Below are positions 33,815 through 39,957 of a DNA stretch of 64,000 bases, piece after piece. The stretch is from positions 4,278,001 through 4,342,000 of the forward strand of contig NZ_CP139960.1 of NCBI RefSeq assembly GCF_034424215.1. The letters run 5' to 3'. Each line of letters opens with the position of its first letter. Within the stretch, counting starts at the first letter, position 1. The DNA is from Niabella yanshanensis. Its GTDB lineage: Bacteria; Bacteroidota; Bacteroidia; Chitinophagales; Chitinophagaceae. The notes under the pieces were generated by a model that was given only the letters and a program-made list of their open reading frames with translations, was not told the DNA's origin and did not search any database. Position numbers and translations under genes: made by a program.

Positions 33815-34573
33815 ATGAAGGATTTTACTATTGTAAACAGGAAGACTCCTATTCTGGCTTTTGCCTTGCACGATGGTCATCGGATAGATGAGTCCCTGCG
33901 TAGCTATCTTTTGTTAGATGAGCAGGGGCGAGCGCGTGAGGAAGATCCCTATACGGGTTATATGATTGCTGATCTCCCGGTAACTACTGTGGCAGTTCAT
34001 GCGTCGCGTTTCCAGCTTGACCTGAACCGGGTAAAAGAGCAATCGGTTTATGCGAAACCGGAAGATGCCTGGGGCCTGCATGTATGGAACGGGCTTCCCA
34101 TTGCCGCTATTGAAGAATTAAATACCCGTTACGAAGCCTTCTATACTGAAATCCGGCTTTTAATTGAAGAGGCTGTTAAAGAGCATGGCTACTTTTGTAT
34201 ACTGGATGTTCATTCCTATAATCACCGCAGGGAAAGTCCCTTTAAAGAAGCTGATAGCGAAACGCATCCCGAAATAAACCTGGGCACTTTTTATAATAAC
34301 AAAAAATGGTTTCCCCTTTGCGACAGTTACAATAGTTTTTTGTCTGACTCGAAAATCCTGGATGCTCAGCCGGATGTGCGCCAGAATATTATTTTTAAAG
34401 GAGGGGCTTTTGCCCAATGGGTAACAGGAAATTTTGGCGAAGACGGTGCCGTGCTGTCAATCGAGTTTAAGAAAACTTTTATGGACGAATGGACCGGTAT
34501 AGCCAATATACCGCATGTCAATAACTTAAAAGAATTATTGCATTTATCAGTAAGCTTTTTACAAAAGAACTAA
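33815..34573 (+). CDS. N-formylglutamate amidohydrolase-like protein
   Basis: 252 residues of the FGase fold. ILAFALHDGHRID near the start, TTVAVHASRFQLDLNR and FCILDVHSYNHRR carry the His/Asp/Glu metal ligands, and SIEFKKTFMDEW lies near the end. Classical members cleave formate from N-formylglutamate in histidine breakdown, but no hut gene is nearby. Here it opens a three-gene set with a DUF1704 peptidase (22-nt gap) and an ATP-grasp ligase, so it more likely hydrolyses an amide or peptide made by those partners. That is inference. Confidence 0.85.
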   Translation: MKDFTIVNRKTPILAFALHDGHRIDESLRSYLLLDEQGRAREEDPYTGYMIADLPVTTVAVHASRFQLDLNRVKEQSVYAKPEDAWGLHVWNGLPIAAIEELNTRYEAFYTEIRLLIEEAVKEHGYFCILDVHSYNHRRESPFKEADSETHPEINLGTFYNNKKWFPLCDSYNSFLSDSKILDAQPDVRQNIIFKGGAFAQWVTGNFGEDGAVLSIEFKKTFMDEWTGIANIPHVNNLKELLHLSVSFLQKN

Positions 34574-34595
34574 AAAACAGAGCGGGGAATTAAGA

Positions 34596-36443
34596 ATGAC
34601 AGATGCCAATCAAAAAATATTGAATCGCCTGCAGGATAAACTTAAAAAGTCGGAGCCCATTCATATAACGTTGCCTGGAAACGGACTTCTCAAAATTGAA
34701 AAGCCCGTTCCCTTTCTTCTTGTGTATCGCTTGGGCGAAGGAAGAGATTATTTCCCCAACCGGTTGGGGAAAACAGAGTCGGCTTATTTAATTGCTGAAG
34801 ATGATGCTGAGGGGCTCATGCGAAGAATTATTCAAATAGTGAGTACGCTATTGGCCGATAGGTTTAATGGTTTTCTCATTGTAGAAACCTGGCTATCTCC
34901 CAAAGTGTATCAGTCTCCCTTTACGATCCATATCAGTCAGAAAAGGGCTATAGATACTGCCCGAAAGCTGGATGCAGAACTGAATAAAATACCAATACCT
35001 TCCTGGGGTAAAACCTCGGTGCTGAAGAAGCAGCAGGAGCCGGCTGCCCCCACAGATATGCAACCCCTTTTAAAAAAAGATTACATAGACAAGTATGGTA
35101 TTACTTTTGTCGGACTCGAAATAGCACCCGTATATGTGAATGAAGCAACCGGTAAGCCTTATCCCCTGTTTTTGCGTGAGCTAAGAGCGGGTTACAGCAG
35201 AGCCCTGCGTAAAAGCTTTTTTGAATTTATACGCCTGCAGACTTCTTTTATAGCTTCTCATTTTCAGATGTTGGGTACTACTATCATTGACGATAAGGCA
35301 CGTGAAATAGACCGGGAGCTGGCCGCATATACCAAAATGTTCGATTTTCTGATGCTGGTGACTCCCATTAATGCAGATGCGGCCTGGGAAGAGTTTCAAA
35401 ATGCCAATTATGCCAAAAATCCTGTATTCCATTACCGGCCGATGCCGGTGGACCCGGAGTTGATAAAAAGGAAAATATATAATCTCCCCATTGAGGATAT
35501 AACGGATCCTACCATTGCTTTTTTATTTCGTGATAAAAGAAAAGAGATTGACCGCATGCTGAACATGATGCAGGAAAGAGAGAAGCATGATTTTTTACTG
35601 AGCAGCTTGCAATTGTTTGGTCCGGTTAGCGAGCAATTGCTGGATGTAGCTAAAGCCTTACTGGTGGCAGTAGATGCAGGGAGTGAAGCCGCCACTGAAA
35701 CGAAAAGATTAACGGCAGCTGAGTTCGCTTTGATGGCTCAGAAGGAATTGAAATGGTTAAGAGCCCAGGATAGCAGCGTGTCGTCCAATATCCGTATTGC
35801 AGATGATATAGAAGGGATATTGGTTTCTAAGGGGGTATTGAACATCAATTCGGGCTTCGGTATTTCAAAAAAAAGAGCGCAACCGCTTCTGCAACACGAA
35901 ATTGGCACACATGTGGTAACATATTATAATGGCAAGGCACAGCCTCTCGAGCTGTTTTCAATTGGGGTGCCGGGTTATGAAGAATTGCAGGAGGGATTAG
36001 CGGTTTTGGCAGAGTATATGACAAATGGCTTAACAGCCAGTCGCATGCGAACCCTGGCTGCCAGGGTAGTAGCAGTGCAGGAGATGATCAGCGGTAAATC
36101 ATTTGTAGATACGTTTCATTTGCTTTCTGATAAATATACCTTTGCTCCACATTCTGCATTTAATATCTGCATGCGGGTTTATAGGGGAGGAGGACTTACA
36201 AAGGATGCCGTTTACCTGAAAGGCTTTTTAAATATTATCGATTATATTAAAAAGGGAAAAGACCTGAAGCACCTGTTGATTGGAAAAATACGTGAAGATT
36301 ACCTTCCGGTAGTACAGGAGCTGATACATCGCAATATTCTTTTGGAGGCACCTATAACACCCCGTTTTTTACAGGGAGATTTTCTGGCAAAGCTCGAGAC
36401 GATCAAGAAGGAGGCAAACATTTTTAAAATGATTCAACAATAA
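34596..36443 (+). CDS. DUF1704 / QEGLA-motif metallopeptidase-like protein
   Basis: 615 residues. The signature is HEIGTHVVTYYNG (HExxxH, about residues 435-440) followed by GYEELQEGLAVLAEYM (QEGLA, about 466), the layout of the MATCAP family in which the two His and a downstream Glu bind zinc. Eukaryotic MATCAP1 removes the C-terminal Tyr of tubulin. Bacterial members carry the label flavohemoglobin expression-modulating QEGLA motif protein, which does not describe an activity. Residues 1-200 resemble no domain I know. It is followed 9 nt later by an ATP-grasp ligase, giving a ligase-peptidase pair. Confidence 0.85.
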   Translation: MTDANQKILNRLQDKLKKSEPIHITLPGNGLLKIEKPVPFLLVYRLGEGRDYFPNRLGKTESAYLIAEDDAEGLMRRIIQIVSTLLADRFNGFLIVETWLSPKVYQSPFTIHISQKRAIDTARKLDAELNKIPIPSWGKTSVLKKQQEPAAPTDMQPLLKKDYIDKYGITFVGLEIAPVYVNEATGKPYPLFLRELRAGYSRALRKSFFEFIRLQTSFIASHFQMLGTTIIDDKAREIDRELAAYTKMFDFLMLVTPINADAAWEEFQNANYAKNPVFHYRPMPVDPELIKRKIYNLPIEDITDPTIAFLFRDKRKEIDRMLNMMQEREKHDFLLSSLQLFGPVSEQLLDVAKALLVAVDAGSEAATETKRLTAAEFALMAQKELKWLRAQDSSVSSNIRIADDIEGILVSKGVLNINSGFGISKKRAQPLLQHEIGTHVVTYYNGKAQPLELFSIGVPGYEELQEGLAVLAEYMTNGLTASRMRTLAARVVAVQEMISGKSFVDTFHLLSDKYTFAPHSAFNICMRVYRGGGLTKDAVYLKGFLNIIDYIKKGKDLKHLLIGKIREDYLPVVQELIHRNILLEAPITPRFLQGDFLAKLETIKKEANIFKMIQQ

Positions 36444-36452
36444 AAACGATAT

Positions 36453-37439
36453 ATGCGTATAGGTTTTGTTATTAATGATTATGACCGTGAAGAACCGTAT
36501 TTTACCACCACCCGCCTGGCGCTGCAGGCCCTGCAAATGGGGCACGAGGTGTATTATATAGCGGTGCAGGATTTTAGCTATACAGCATCCGGGCAAATGG
36601 GAGCGCATGCAAAAAAAGCGCCGGCAAAGAAGTTTCGTAGCCCGCAGATTTTCATGGAAACCGTTTTCGAGGTCGAGAAAAAACTGATCGAATCCCGAGA
36701 TCTGGATGTATTGATGCTGCGTAACGATCCTTCTGCGGACCTGGATGATCGCCCATGGGCCCAGTATTCGGGTATTGTATTTGGACAATTAGCCAAAAAG
36801 AACGGGGTGCTGGTTTTGAACAACCCCGATACGCTGGCTAAGGCCACCAATAAAATGTACTTTCAATACTTCCCGGAGATCATAAGACCTGAAACAATTA
36901 TCACCCGCAGTATTACAGAAATTAAAAGCTTTTACGCGGCTCATAAAAAGAACATTGTGTTGAAGCCACTACAGGGGTCTGGAGGGAAAAATGTCTTTCT
37001 GGTGAATGAACAAAATCAGAATTTAAACCAGATTGTAGATGCGATTGGCCGCGATGGGTATATTGTTGCCCAGGAATATTTGCCGAAAGCCAGTAAAGGA
37101 GATATACGGCTGTTTTTGCTCAACGGAAAACCTATAGAAATTGACGGCAAGGTAGCCGCTATACATCGTACGCAGGCTGGAGGCGATATTCGCAGTAATA
37201 TCCACCAGGGAGGCGCGGTATCGCAGGCAAAAATAACGCGCAAGATTTTTGATATCGTGGATGCGGTGAGCCATAAGCTGGTTAAAGACGGGATGTTTTT
37301 GGTAGGCCTCGATGTGGTGGGCGACAAAGTAATGGAGGTGAATGTATTTAGTCCGGGTGGTATGGGACATGCCTGTCGCCTGAACGACGTTAATTATTTT
37401 GAAGAAGTCATTAAAGCGATTGAGCAGGAACTGGATTAA
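36453..37439 (+). CDS. Glutathione-synthetase-like ATP-grasp ligase
   Basis: 328 residues with the GshB arrangement: an N-terminal domain (MRIGFVINDYDREEPYFTTTRLALQALQMG), a central part (LMLRNDPSADLDDRPWAQYSGIVFGQLA), and an ATP-grasp domain (NIVLKPLQGSGGKNVFLV; IVAQEYLPKASKGDIRLFLLNG; GGDIRSNIHQGG; FLVGLDVVGDKVMEVNVFSPGG). No gamma-glutamylcysteine ligase gene is in the window, so a true glutathione role is not supported here. It may ligate an amino acid to a small or peptidic carboxylate. The end overlaps the convergent ferredoxin-like gene by 4 nt. Confidence 0.85.
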   Translation: MRIGFVINDYDREEPYFTTTRLALQALQMGHEVYYIAVQDFSYTASGQMGAHAKKAPAKKFRSPQIFMETVFEVEKKLIESRDLDVLMLRNDPSADLDDRPWAQYSGIVFGQLAKKNGVLVLNNPDTLAKATNKMYFQYFPEIIRPETIITRSITEIKSFYAAHKKNIVLKPLQGSGGKNVFLVNEQNQNLNQIVDAIGRDGYIVAQEYLPKASKGDIRLFLLNGKPIEIDGKVAAIHRTQAGGDIRSNIHQGGAVSQAKITRKIFDIVDAVSHKLVKDGMFLVGLDVVGDKVMEVNVFSPGGMGHACRLNDVNYFEEVIKAIEQELD

Positions 37440-38344
37440 GATATTGCTGGTATTACTTCGAGTTTTGCCAGTTTGAACTTAGAGATATTTTCCTGCTTTT
37501 TCGCTTTACAGGTAAGAAGATGGGGGTAGTCGATCTTTACTCTTTCCAGGTCCATAATATAATGGCCATTATTACTCGTAGTTACATCTACCTCGTAATG
37601 ATCTCCTTCATGCTTCAATAGATGAGTATGAATTTCAAAGTCTATATCATAGTTCTGCAGGTGTTCACGTAAATGACATTCAATAGCCTGCTCATAAAAT
37701 GACCGGCGCGATACACCCCTGAATTTATTTTTATAGATTTTCCGTAAAAGCGTTCTTACCATAATGTGGCCTACGTCTTCAACTGCTACATGACCATAAT
37801 AAATACCAAAAGGCATGGCGATAACATTGGCCGCAAAGCGGTCACCTCCCACATGGGTGCATTCCCACACATTAACATTGGCATTAAAAGATTCAAAAAA
37901 TTTGAATACGGGGAAACCAAATTTAGCACAACATTTATCTTTTTTGCCATTGGTACAGATCACGAAAAAGGGATCGGTTTGCCATTGTGTATCGGCTGAA
38001 GTGATATGGTCCGATAGATGAACAGAGCTGATTTCATCAACAGTTGTTTGAATGGTAAAATACCGGCCGGCTTTATTATCCACAAAGGAGATCCTGCATT
38101 CTTTGAAATTGGTTTTTTTATTACGGATAAGTAATACCTTACCGCGCAAACTTTTAGCTAGCTGCTGAATCTCCCTTAGCCATTCTTTATCAAAATGGGC
38201 CTCTATTATTTTTTCAGGAAAAGGATTGGCATGTTCAATTAATATGAACGCGCCGGCATTAGCTGCAGTGCCGGCTAACTGTTCTTTAAAATACCTCGAC
38301 GCGGCACTGCAGAAAAACACCTCTTTTTTAATATCGTTGTCCAA
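37436..38344 (-). CDS. Sucrase/ferredoxin-like protein (thioredoxin-like [2Fe-2S] ferredoxin)
   Basis: 302 residues. The Suc_Fer family pattern is seen: FFVICTNGKKDKCCAKFG (Cys130, Cys138, Cys139) and VWECTHVGGDRFAANVIAMPFG (Cys162, His164). In yeast Apd1 two Cys and two His bind the [2Fe-2S] cluster; here the second His position is Asp168, as I recall is usual in bacterial members. It is probably a one-electron carrier. It starts with TTG 11 nt after the JmjC gene stop, so both form one unit; an electron donor to the Fe(II) oxygenase is a reasonable guess. The family is rare in Bacteroidota to my knowledge. Confidence 0.82.
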   Translation of the reverse strand: MDNDIKKEVFFCSAASRYFKEQLAGTAANAGAFILIEHANPFPEKIIEAHFDKEWLREIQQLAKSLRGKVLLIRNKKTNFKECRISFVDNKAGRYFTIQTTVDEISSVHLSDHITSADTQWQTDPFFVICTNGKKDKCCAKFGFPVFKFFESFNANVNVWECTHVGGDRFAANVIAMPFGIYYGHVAVEDVGHIMVRTLLRKIYKNKFRGVSRRSFYEQAIECHLREHLQNYDIDFEIHTHLLKHEGDHYEVDVTTSNNGHYIMDLERVKIDYPHLLTCKAKKQENISKFKLAKLEVIPAIS

Positions 38345-38355
38345 ATAATAATACT

Positions 38356-39537
38356 TTACAATTCGTCAATATAAACAACACCTTCCCTGATTAGTTGCGT
38401 AATCAGCCCGTTTACAGCTTCTGTCTCTCCAGGCAAATCTTTTAAAGTAAATTTCTTTTGGCTGAAAATATAATCAACTGCAGGCTTCAGTACCTCAGGA
38501 AACAGGATGGCTTTACCCAGCAAATGTAGTTCATACCCCGGTTCTTTTTTTACAAACTGGTAAATTATACCCCCATTAAGGGCTAATGCGGTATCGGGCA
38601 ATAGCTTATCAATATTCCTGATGCTTTCAAAATAATTATGAACGGGCTGGGGCTGTGCTGAATGATAGCTTTTATTGAGGCGCTCTATGCCTTTATCAAA
38701 GTTAAGCCCCGACAATTTCTGACGCAGGGTTTCTGTTTTTTCCTTGATCAGCTCTGTCAGGTCGCCTCTCCAGAAAGGAACAGCTTCCCTGAACTCCTTA
38801 AATTCTTCCAGCTGCGGGAATATTTCGTTGAAGTACCTGGCCCAGGTAAATGAAAGTACACCAATAGTGATATGAGACGAAATGCCATCGTCGGCCATAG
38901 CATCATGTACATAGCCCCGCGGCACATATAAAAAGTCACCCGGACTGAGCTGTATGGTTTGAGTAGGCTCTTTATTATAATCCTTGCTTACAAAAGACTG
39001 GTTCTTGGTGGGTAATTCTTTTTCAAATCCGTATAAATGCCAGGTTTTAGTACCTGATATCTGCAACACAAAAACATCATGCGTGTCCCAGTGAGGATTA
39101 AAACCCTGTGATTTATTAGGCGTAATATACAAATTGGCCTGTACGGGGGAATTGAATTTTTGAGAAAGTTCCAGGCTGCAGTGAGACAGGTTATTAAAGT
39201 AACGTTGTCCGGCCTGTATCACAAATGTAGCGCCGTTATTAAAAAGGGAAAAAGCCTTATCGGTATTGATGATACCATCTTTACGGTGATGACCAATTGG
39301 CGTACTTTTTAATGTATACTCGCCATTAGGAATTTCCTTCCCGTTTTTTACGATGCGAACCGAGGGGTAAAAAATGTCCTGGCGTTCGAGGTAATCTGAT
39401 ATTTCCCGGGGTGTTAGAATGTCCTGGTAGTACTGTTCATCATTTCTTTTAACATGCAGGATTTCTTTCTCATGATAGGTATTGAAAAAATCATCAACGC
39501 TATAGGGGGCTACAATTTTATCGAAAAAATAGTTCAT
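38356..39537 (-). CDS. JmjC/cupin-4 family Fe(II)/2-oxoglutarate oxygenase
   Basis: 393 residues. A double-stranded beta-helix with the facial triad His149-x-Asp151 (NPHWDTHDVFVLQISGTKTW) and His211 (VPRGYVHDA) shows a JmjC oxygenase, related to ribosomal oxygenases (RoxA/YcfD) that hydroxylate protein residues. The tail (AVDYIFSQKKFTLKDL ... REGVVYIDEL) is a winged helix, as in that group. It lies between a ferredoxin-like gene and a gene for an Asp-Gly-repeat peptide, so that peptide is a candidate substrate, with Asp beta-hydroxylation a possible reaction. This is inference from context. Confidence 0.85.
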   Translation of the reverse strand: MNYFFDKIVAPYSVDDFFNTYHEKEILHVKRNDEQYYQDILTPREISDYLERQDIFYPSVRIVKNGKEIPNGEYTLKSTPIGHHRKDGIINTDKAFSLFNNGATFVIQAGQRYFNNLSHCSLELSQKFNSPVQANLYITPNKSQGFNPHWDTHDVFVLQISGTKTWHLYGFEKELPTKNQSFVSKDYNKEPTQTIQLSPGDFLYVPRGYVHDAMADDGISSHITIGVLSFTWARYFNEIFPQLEEFKEFREAVPFWRGDLTELIKEKTETLRQKLSGLNFDKGIERLNKSYHSAQPQPVHNYFESIRNIDKLLPDTALALNGGIIYQFVKKEPGYELHLLGKAILFPEVLKPAVDYIFSQKKFTLKDLPGETEAVNGLITQLIREGVVYIDEL

Positions 39538-39586
39538 CGTGTTTAATTAGGGATACGCCCGTCTGAATAGCACAATCGGGCAAAAA

Positions 39587-39618
39587 AAGCCGCAGAAAAT
39601 ATACATTCACTGCGGCTT
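39587..39618 (-). terminator. Terminator or attenuator between the repeat peptide gene and the JmjC gene
   Basis: On the minus strand AAGCCGCAG pairs with CTGCGGCTT around a 14-nt loop and is followed by five T. It lies 28 nt after the peptide stop and 50 nt before the JmjC start, a position typical of partial terminators that keep peptide mRNA in excess of enzyme mRNA. Confidence 0.8.
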
Positions 39619-39646
39619 GAAAAATGTTCGTTTTTAATCGGGAAGA

Positions 39647-39883
39647 TTAGGCGCCTGTTGTTCCGTCAGCACCACCATCACCATCTGCACCGCCATCGCC
39701 ATCACCATCGGCTCCACCGTCGCCGTCAGCGCCACCATCACCATCAGCACCATCACCGCCGTCAGCGCCACCATCTCCGTCACCGTCTCCATCGCCATCA
39801 TAAGCACCTTCAGTGGTATTTACTTCATCTAATCTTGTTACTAATAAATCTTCCTGGTTGAATTCAATATTTGTTGTTTCCAT
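39647..39883 (-). CDS. Asp-Gly-repeat peptide, putative RiPP-type precursor
   Basis: 78 residues. Residues 1-27 look like a leader (METTNIEFNQEDLLVTRLDE, then VNTTEGA). From residue 29 the peptide is almost only Asp, Gly and Ala: first a DG run, then units of ADGDGG, ending ADGTTGA. No signal peptide. Synonymous codons vary freely in the repeats (GAT/GAC, GGC/GGT/GGA, GCT/GCC/GCA), so selection holds the peptide sequence. The DxDxDG pattern could also bind calcium. It is followed by a hairpin, a JmjC oxygenase and a ferredoxin, which suggests a modified peptide. I know no described family that fits. Confidence 0.75.
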   Translation of the reverse strand: METTNIEFNQEDLLVTRLDEVNTTEGAYDGDGDGDGDGGADGGDGADGDGGADGDGGADGDGDGGADGDGGADGTTGA

Positions 39884-39923
39884 AAAACGATTTTGAGGTT
39901 TAATAAAAATAATGTTTGCTAAA

Positions 39924-39957
39924 CTAAAGTAGCGAATCTTTTTGATTTGCCGAACAA
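39924..39957 (-). promoter_or_regulatory. Candidate promoter of the repeat-peptide operon
   Basis: On the minus strand TTG (39955-39957), a 23-bp spacer, then TACTTTAG (39924-39931), one base from the TAnnTTTG consensus. It would give a leader of about 35 nt. Confidence 0.45.

Follow-up and report, generated by a model that had tools for sequence, protein, structure and literature searches.

The window analysed here, a stretch of 64,000 nucleotides from the complete 5.54-Mb genome of Niabella yanshanensis (contig NZ_CP139960.1, positions 4,278,001 to 4,342,000), contains on its minus strand a small module in which a repeat peptide is encoded next to an oxygenase. The gene for a 78-residue peptide with Asp-Gly (DG) repeats (39647-39883) is followed by a terminator-like hairpin with a run of T residues (39582..39618), by the gene for a JmjC oxygenase (38356..39537) and, after a gap of 11 nt, by the gene for a Suc_Fer-like [2Fe-2S]-type protein with a TTG start codon (37436..38344). 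This arrangement had been recognized in an initial annotation of the DNA and is confirmed by comparison, as the same order is found in 12 of 12 close relatives.

The peptide consists of two parts. Its leader-like N-terminus (residues 1-28, 39800..39883, METTNIEFNQEDLLVTRLDEVNTTEGAY) is conserved in the 13 leaders from the close loci, 12 of which, including that of the window, contain VTR (VIR in L011). The DG-repeat core (residues 29-78, 39650..39799) was read from the translation and the codon table and is composed of 17 D, 24 G, 7 A and 2 T, and is therefore free of His, Arg, Lys, Asn and Pro. The cores at the close loci are of DG or TDG type and differ in length, so that all 13 loci encode a short peptide with a leader-like part and a variable core, as expected for the precursor of a ribosomally synthesized and post-translationally modified peptide (RiPP). 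In codon comparisons of the cores, third-position changes dominate (44 third-, 6 first- and 6 second-position changes between the window and L006), in agreement with the silent codon variation that had been claimed for the repeat. A reading of the C-terminal DGTTGA as a flavinylation motif was dropped, because this end is not conserved among the relatives.

The oxygenase (PF08007) is of the ROX type, i.e. NO66/MINA53-like, with a C-terminal winged-helix region. Its predicted fold corresponds to full-length NO66 and MINA53, including the C-terminal region, so that the JmjC, helical and winged-helix parts typical of ROX enzymes all appear to be present. The residues of the metal triad (H149, D151 and H211, HxD...H) are invariant in 28 homologues and align with those of MINA53. 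Alignment and predicted fold thus bear out the intact triad and the winged-helix tail of the first description. In a sample of the window's family, the JmjC query matched 5 of 195 genomes: three of one genus, including the window's own, L004 (a 29% match) and L005 (a weak partial match). This amounts to 3 of 101 sampled genera, one of them by way of the weak partial match, and a fourth sampled genome of the window's genus, G119, gave no JmjC match. Phage records (50,697) yielded a single weak match (26.5% over 29% of the query).

The Suc_Fer-like protein scores 86.9 bits against PF06999 (cut-off 34.9, E 2.3e-24). It is the only Suc_Fer-like copy found in its genome, and in the family sample such proteins were found in 3 of 191 genomes, exactly the three genomes of the genus that carry the module. 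In a sample of the phylum, a protein exceeding the PF06999 cut-off is present in 6 of 296 genomes, and two of these 6 carry the module.

Close relatives in Niabella and Cruoricaptor

Among named genomes, 59 loci were found, of which ten are close (nine from Niabella and one from Cruoricaptor ignavus). Together with L002 and L003, the ten make up the 12 close relatives (11 of Niabella type and one from Cruoricaptor), or 13 loci with the window. The nearest named JmjC match, from Niabella defluvii, is 98% identical in the best segment. A DG-repeat peptide is encoded directly upstream of JmjC in all 12 relatives, and hence at 13 of 13 loci; folding of the spacers shows a hairpin with a T-run between the two genes in every case. 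A Suc_Fer-like match lies downstream in all 12, in L015 only as three short pieces.

Among open reading frames (ORFs) of at least 80 residues, only the JmjC and Suc_Fer-like genes cluster in all ten named close loci, and the other neighbours vary by lineage. There is no third conserved gene of this size in these loci, and in particular no conserved protease or exporter, which are common, though not obligatory, in RiPP clusters. The JmjC frame is short or broken in the assemblies L007 (6001-7020), L014 (6001-7058) and L015 (6001-8116), and the Suc_Fer-like frame is also broken in L015. As neighbouring genes are broken as well in L014 and L015, this suggests sequencing indels rather than decay. 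The Cruoricaptor JmjC is 62% identical to that of the window. In a tree of ten close members, from which the short or frame-broken L007, L014, L015 and L055 were left out, Cruoricaptor is nested inside Niabella (support 100/99), so the module seems to have been transferred as a unit.

Asp-rich peptides beside distant JmjC relatives

At 43 distant loci (L016-L058), the JmjC protein is 26-33% identical to that of the window in the best segment. These loci stem from Acidobacteriota, Gemmatimonadota, Acetobacteraceae, one planctomycete and one member of the Opitutaceae. According to a leader profile and inspection, a peptide that resembles substrates of twin-arginine translocation (Tat) in its signal and has an Asp- or Glu-rich tail is encoded within about 3 kb of JmjC at 40 of the 43, either upstream on the same strand or divergently. 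The distance is at most about 1.2 kb, except for L042 (about 2.7-2.8 kb). L051 was counted on its visible peptide tail, and weak matches were accepted by position and Asp content for L044 (E 1.2e-4), L053 (4.2e-3), L045 (1.2e-4) and L049 (2.2e-5). The three misses are L046, which has two peptides on other contigs, and L050 and L057, where the contig ends just upstream. No peptide was found at any of six further loci outside this set (L059-L064), of which L060 and L061 start at a contig end. A search for small repeat ORFs near JmjC had been proposed in the initial annotation; a peptide accompanies the enzyme at each of the 13 close loci and at 40 of the 43 distant ones.

From the close and distant sets, 53 unique core strings were collected by pattern. 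DxD is present in 52 of them, and the exception is a spurious ORF. Since the collection pattern required some Asp, it partly accounts for the occurrence of D, though not for that of DxD. Many distant peptides have, by eye, a lipobox-like Cys. The Tat-signal model TIGR01409 was passed by one of three distant peptides scanned, the only match above a Pfam or NCBIfam cut-off among all scanned peptides. A common leader motif (EDLLVTRLDE in Niabella, EDITTVRVDR in Acidobacteriota) is not claimed, because a position weight matrix tested against shuffled leaders gave p values from 0.01 to 0.74 (13 leaders).

Searched genome-wide against 8 genomes, the profile of the distant peptides found 8 hits at E <= 0.001 in 7 of them. 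Every hit belongs to the JmjC locus, at a distance of about 2.8 kb in the genome of L042; the genome missed is that of Cruoricaptor, whose peptide is of DG type. In the converse test on 193 genomes of one class, 21 peptides were found in 19 genomes: 17 lie within 1.5 kb of JmjC, one about 2.8 kb away, and three on other contigs of two JmjC-bearing genomes. Nine of the 19 loci of this test (L079-L097) lie outside L016-L064.

Two further samples bear on the pairing. In 200 Gemmatimonadota genomes, JmjC was found in 6, with the peptide or its tail nearby at all 6, although four of these loci repeat L043, L045, L051 and L054, and the matches at L113 are weak (6.4e-4 and 1.4e-3). In 150 genomes of Acetobacteraceae (the family of G581), 32 genomes gave 49 JmjC matches in all. 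Thirty of these matches were examined as loci: the 19 with the best scores, and 11 out of the remaining 30. Peptides adjoin JmjC at 17 of the 19 better-scoring loci (L115-L133; L115 is the same locus as L044), with at most three ORFs per locus and mostly with repeats such as GITDADPNDGPGNGRGG. Identical scans found peptides at none of the 11 weaker homologues (L134-L144); at the control locus L138 there is a single TDPD string in a long open frame, without a repeat. The tree separates the two groups: the 11 weaker homologues form one clade (100/100) and 16 of the 19 better-scoring ones another (100/99), in which 15 of 16 have peptides and L120 is the sole member without. L115 and L116 group with Acidobacteriota-type references (L053), and L117 stands alone on a long branch. 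At eight of the Acetobacteraceae loci (L118, L119, L121-L123, L125, L129 and L130), peptide ORFs are arranged in tandem, two or three per locus, and have [ST]DxDPxDxPGxGRG-like repeats and an RR-type N-terminus. Four peptides of this kind that were scanned (from L121, L125, L129 and L131) score below every Pfam and NCBIfam cut-off.

On a Streptomyces clavuligerus plasmid (L165, 6787-8182), a hypothetical protein of 48 residues (WP_009999493.1, MDDKKTSLEPDEIEVIPPVSTPDFVIADNDPSDPPIAIADPDPFDPVI) with the pattern DxDPxD (DNDPSD/DPDPFD) is encoded directly before a cupin gene, the product of which (WP_009999494.1) matches the window JmjC with 28.4% over 98%. The annotation of three other cupin regions on Streptomyces and Nocardia plasmids contains no DxD peptide; this negative refers to annotated genes only, as neither the sequences themselves nor small ORFs missing from the annotation were inspected.

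Neighbouring genes and other genomic contexts

In the window, genes for an FGase, a QEGLA/MATCAP protein and a GSH-S-type ATP-grasp protein follow one another at 33815-37439. The last of these (36453-37439) is convergent with the Suc_Fer-like gene and overlaps it by 4 nt. A graspetide reading of the module based on this ATP-grasp gene was rejected, because a homologous neighbour accompanies the module at only 3 of the 10 close loci from named genomes. No member of the biphenomycin-type set (multinuclear non-haem iron-dependent oxidative enzyme, MNIO; B12-dependent radical S-adenosylmethionine enzyme, B12-rSAM; arginase) is present among the seven proteins in and around the module that were scanned in the window. 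A Pfam scan of the JmjC and Suc_Fer-like proteins found no RiPP-recognition domain, although one may still be present.

PepSY_TM proteins are encoded at 27 of the 43 distant loci, and all five that were tested contain PF03929. At L054 (3864-11410), the genes for PepSY_TM, a DSDG-repeat peptide and JmjC adjoin haem-uptake-type genes (Peripla_BP_2, FecCD, ABC and HemS). Iron uptake was considered as the general context and rejected, as L054 is the only locus with a clear haem-uptake set.

JmjC relatives also occur in other surroundings. By eye, four Bacteroidota loci (L067-L070) place them beside nitrile-hydratase-leader-like precursors or LanM/LanB-like genes, L059 has a radical-SAM-like gene nearby, and L004 has HPr-kinase-like and AsnB-like genes suggestive of a lasso cluster, with the HPr-kinase domain below its cut-off. 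A LanM is annotated near a JmjC relative on a Pseudanabaena plasmid, and a radical SAM/SPASM protein near another on a Rhizobium etli plasmid. L066 (1276-3427) contains two tandem JmjC-like ORFs (the second by eye) and a GG-containing peptide of 57 residues rich in N, D, G and P. The JmjC query matches 25 Escherichia plasmid records; on a 7.9-kb mobilizable E. coli plasmid (L166, 3460-6442), the gene for a 151-residue protein that ends in a Cys-rich tail stands in a row with those for an ABC transporter and a cupin/JmjC protein, which looks like another RiPP-type cluster. The variety of these RiPP-like contexts indicates that peptide tailoring may be a general function of JmjC proteins with this fold, and that the DxD pairing may be limited to certain branches.

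Discussion

The pairing between JmjC enzyme and repeat peptide is strongly supported by genomics. Pairs are seen in Bacteroidota, Acidobacteriota, Gemmatimonadota, Pseudomonadota (Acetobacteraceae) and, with S. clavuligerus, Actinomycetota, and there is one single-locus pair each in Planctomycetota and Verrucomicrobiota. The Niabella module is best described as the Bacteroidota member of a wide JmjC/DxD-peptide partnership. The initial annotation had proposed a new RiPP-type system. The part of this proposal that stands is the encoding of a candidate modifying enzyme beside its presumed precursor at nearly all loci of these branches, and for this pairing the term is fair; its novelty has to be qualified, since JmjC enzymes in RiPP pathways have already been published. 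At the ten named close loci, no protease or exporter is conserved with the module.

Together, our data suggest a model in which the DG peptide is the substrate of JmjC. The peptide would be made in excess, as the hairpin would let only some transcripts pass into the enzyme genes and so set the stoichiometry. Leader and ROX-type scaffold would position the peptide, and the Fe(II)/2-oxoglutarate site would hydroxylate Asp at the beta-carbon in one DxD unit after another of the core, so that an array of 3-hydroxy-aspartate residues would result. In the Niabella/Cruoricaptor version, the Suc_Fer-like protein may be the redox partner that passes electrons. In the Acidobacteriota-type branch, an equivalent hydroxylation would take place on a peptide whose signal is of Tat type and in many cases lipoprotein-like; such a signal would fit modification in the cytoplasm before export. 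Judging by the sequence comparisons, it is very likely that JmjC modifies its linked peptide. That Asp in the DxD units is the modified residue seems reasonably probable, because the core in the window offers only D, A, T and G.

Several observations weigh against this model. Among solved structures, the nearest relatives are, according to the entry titles, enzymes that act on His or Arg of ribosomal proteins, and the leader Arg, a possible alternative target, is kept at 13 of 13 close loci. The similarity between Niabella- and Acidobacteriota-type leaders is, as judged by the shuffling test, mostly non-significant. In two Acidobacteriota peptides (L016 and L018), a short stretch of DxD gives way to Glu repeats, and two of the 19 better-scoring Acetobacteraceae loci (L117 and L120) showed no peptide. 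At L066, L067 and L069, where JmjC relatives lie beside GG-type precursors, all seven precursor-like ORFs with a GG are free of DxD behind it; the precursor-like ORF at L070 lacks a GG and contains a single DxD, close to its end. JmjC homologues without nearby repeat peptides had been named at the outset as a finding that would speak against the proposal. They are not typical of the branches described here, but other branches do lack such peptides (0 of 11 weaker Acetobacteraceae homologues, and the GG-type cores).

The fold and the conserved Arg invite the idea that JmjC modifies the peptide elsewhere than at Asp, for example at the leader Arg (VTR), in analogy to the arginyl hydroxylation of ribosomal protein L16 by YcfD, or at Ala, Thr or Gly. 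Many distant leaders also have an Arg at about the corresponding position, and Arg or His is the target of those ROX-fold enzymes whose function is known. However, the repeated part of the peptide is the Asp part, DxD recurs across repeat types (DGDG, TDSDQ, TDADPND), and a target in the leader leaves the repeats unexplained, so we consider this unlikely. It is also rather improbable that the peptide remains unmodified as a free-standing Asp-rich structural or ion-binding molecule, with JmjC acting on another protein, for example a ribosomal one. Asp-rich repeats can bind cations without modification, and the fold is that of ribosomal oxygenases, but a tight cross-phylum co-occurrence despite changing repeat types and neighbours would not be expected, nor would a housekeeping ribosome modifier be restricted to so few of the sampled family genera. 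Repeat slippage yields low-complexity ORFs, and one of these might lie beside an unrelated enzyme gene by chance. The 13 of 13 close loci, the third-position codon changes and the conserved leader refute this explanation, to which we assign almost no probability.

A further proposal extends the hydroxylation model rather than competing with it. Hydroxylated DxD peptides might bind Fe(III) (or Ca or Cu) at or outside the membrane, with a redox protein, PepSY_TM in Acidobacteriota and the Suc_Fer-like protein in Niabella, reducing or delivering the metal. The frequency of PepSY_TM at the distant loci fits this idea, as these proteins are described as ferric-siderophore reductases (PMC10866019), and so do the genes next to L054 and the exact co-occurrence of Suc_Fer-like protein and module in the sampled family. 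However, PepSY_TM has also been linked to copper (PMC13038864); it was not seen at 16 of the 43 loci, a number that includes loci truncated by the end of a contig, and is not among the genes conserved in Niabella. Haem-uptake genes were found at L054 alone, and the few other neighbours scanned with Pfam included no TonB receptor. We put forward a metal-handling module only tentatively. Metal binding, suggested for Ca or Fe in the initial annotation, is the most attractive purpose of the modified peptide, but its support is contextual, and it is likewise conceivable rather than probable. Still more speculative is a cross-phylum peptide class in which ROX-type JmjC enzymes and DxD repeats would generate 3-hydroxy-aspartate arrays, often on Tat-exported lipopeptides, as encoded metal chelators read by PepSY_TM or a His/Asp-type Suc_Fer protein.

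Comparison with known systems

The module protein shares PF06999, a C-x7-CC stretch and HxGG with Apd1/Aim32 and other Suc_Fer-like proteins. Apd1 ligates its cluster with two His residues (HxxxH). In contrast to the HxGGH of the stand-alone homologue L149, the module proteins read HxGGD: in 11 of 11 aligned members, H164 is kept and the second His is replaced by D168, so that the two-His pattern of Apd1 is absent.

The window JmjC is predicted to share the whole-length fold with C-terminal region, and shares the HxD...H triad, with NO66 and MINA53, and also with B. subtilis YxbC and bacterial YcfD. By their entry titles, NO66, MINA53 and YxbC act on His of ribosomal proteins and YcfD on Arg, whereas the linked partner here is a short repeat peptide with a core devoid of both residues.

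The JmjC/DxD-peptide pairing itself is apparently undescribed. It does not appear among the open-access matches listed, as judged by titles and the beginnings of abstracts, which is weak evidence, as the subscription literature lies outside this scope. The open-access searches also found no paper on JmjC with PepSY and none on the Asp-rich/Tat peptide set. JmjC hydroxylases (BipG/PbsQ) and Asp beta-hydroxylation (SmaO) in RiPPs, on the other hand, are published. BipG and PbsQ are described as JmjC or cupin-like ornithine hydroxylases of biphenomycin RiPPs (PMC12707348, PMC12257519) and, like the proposed module enzyme, are JmjC-type oxygenases that act on a ribosomal precursor peptide. Compared by description, they differ in that they target ornithine in a pathway with MNIO, B12-rSAM, arginase and protease, whereas JmjC is the only conserved candidate modifier of the module and the core is of DxD type. 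SmaO, from a graspetide cluster, shares the proposed chemistry, namely Asp beta-hydroxylation of a ribosomal peptide, but acts at the N-terminus of a graspetide precursor, and the available description mentions neither a DxD array nor a JmjC label for it (PMC13097080). The corallotide is similar to the proposed module product in that a repeat-containing peptide is hydroxylated in its repeats by a 2-oxoglutarate-dependent enzyme, but there Lys is first macrocyclized and then hydroxylated, and a graspetide synthetase is needed (PMC13097080).

If our model is correct, the module would represent a simple route by which one oxygenase decorates a repeat peptide along its length. It would also connect peptide tailoring with the ROX oxygenases, which are known as hydroxylases of the ribosome, and it offers a substrate that can be tested directly. 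Beta-hydroxyaspartate groups occur in some siderophores, and arrays of hydroxy-Asp would be their gene-encoded counterpart if they bind metals.

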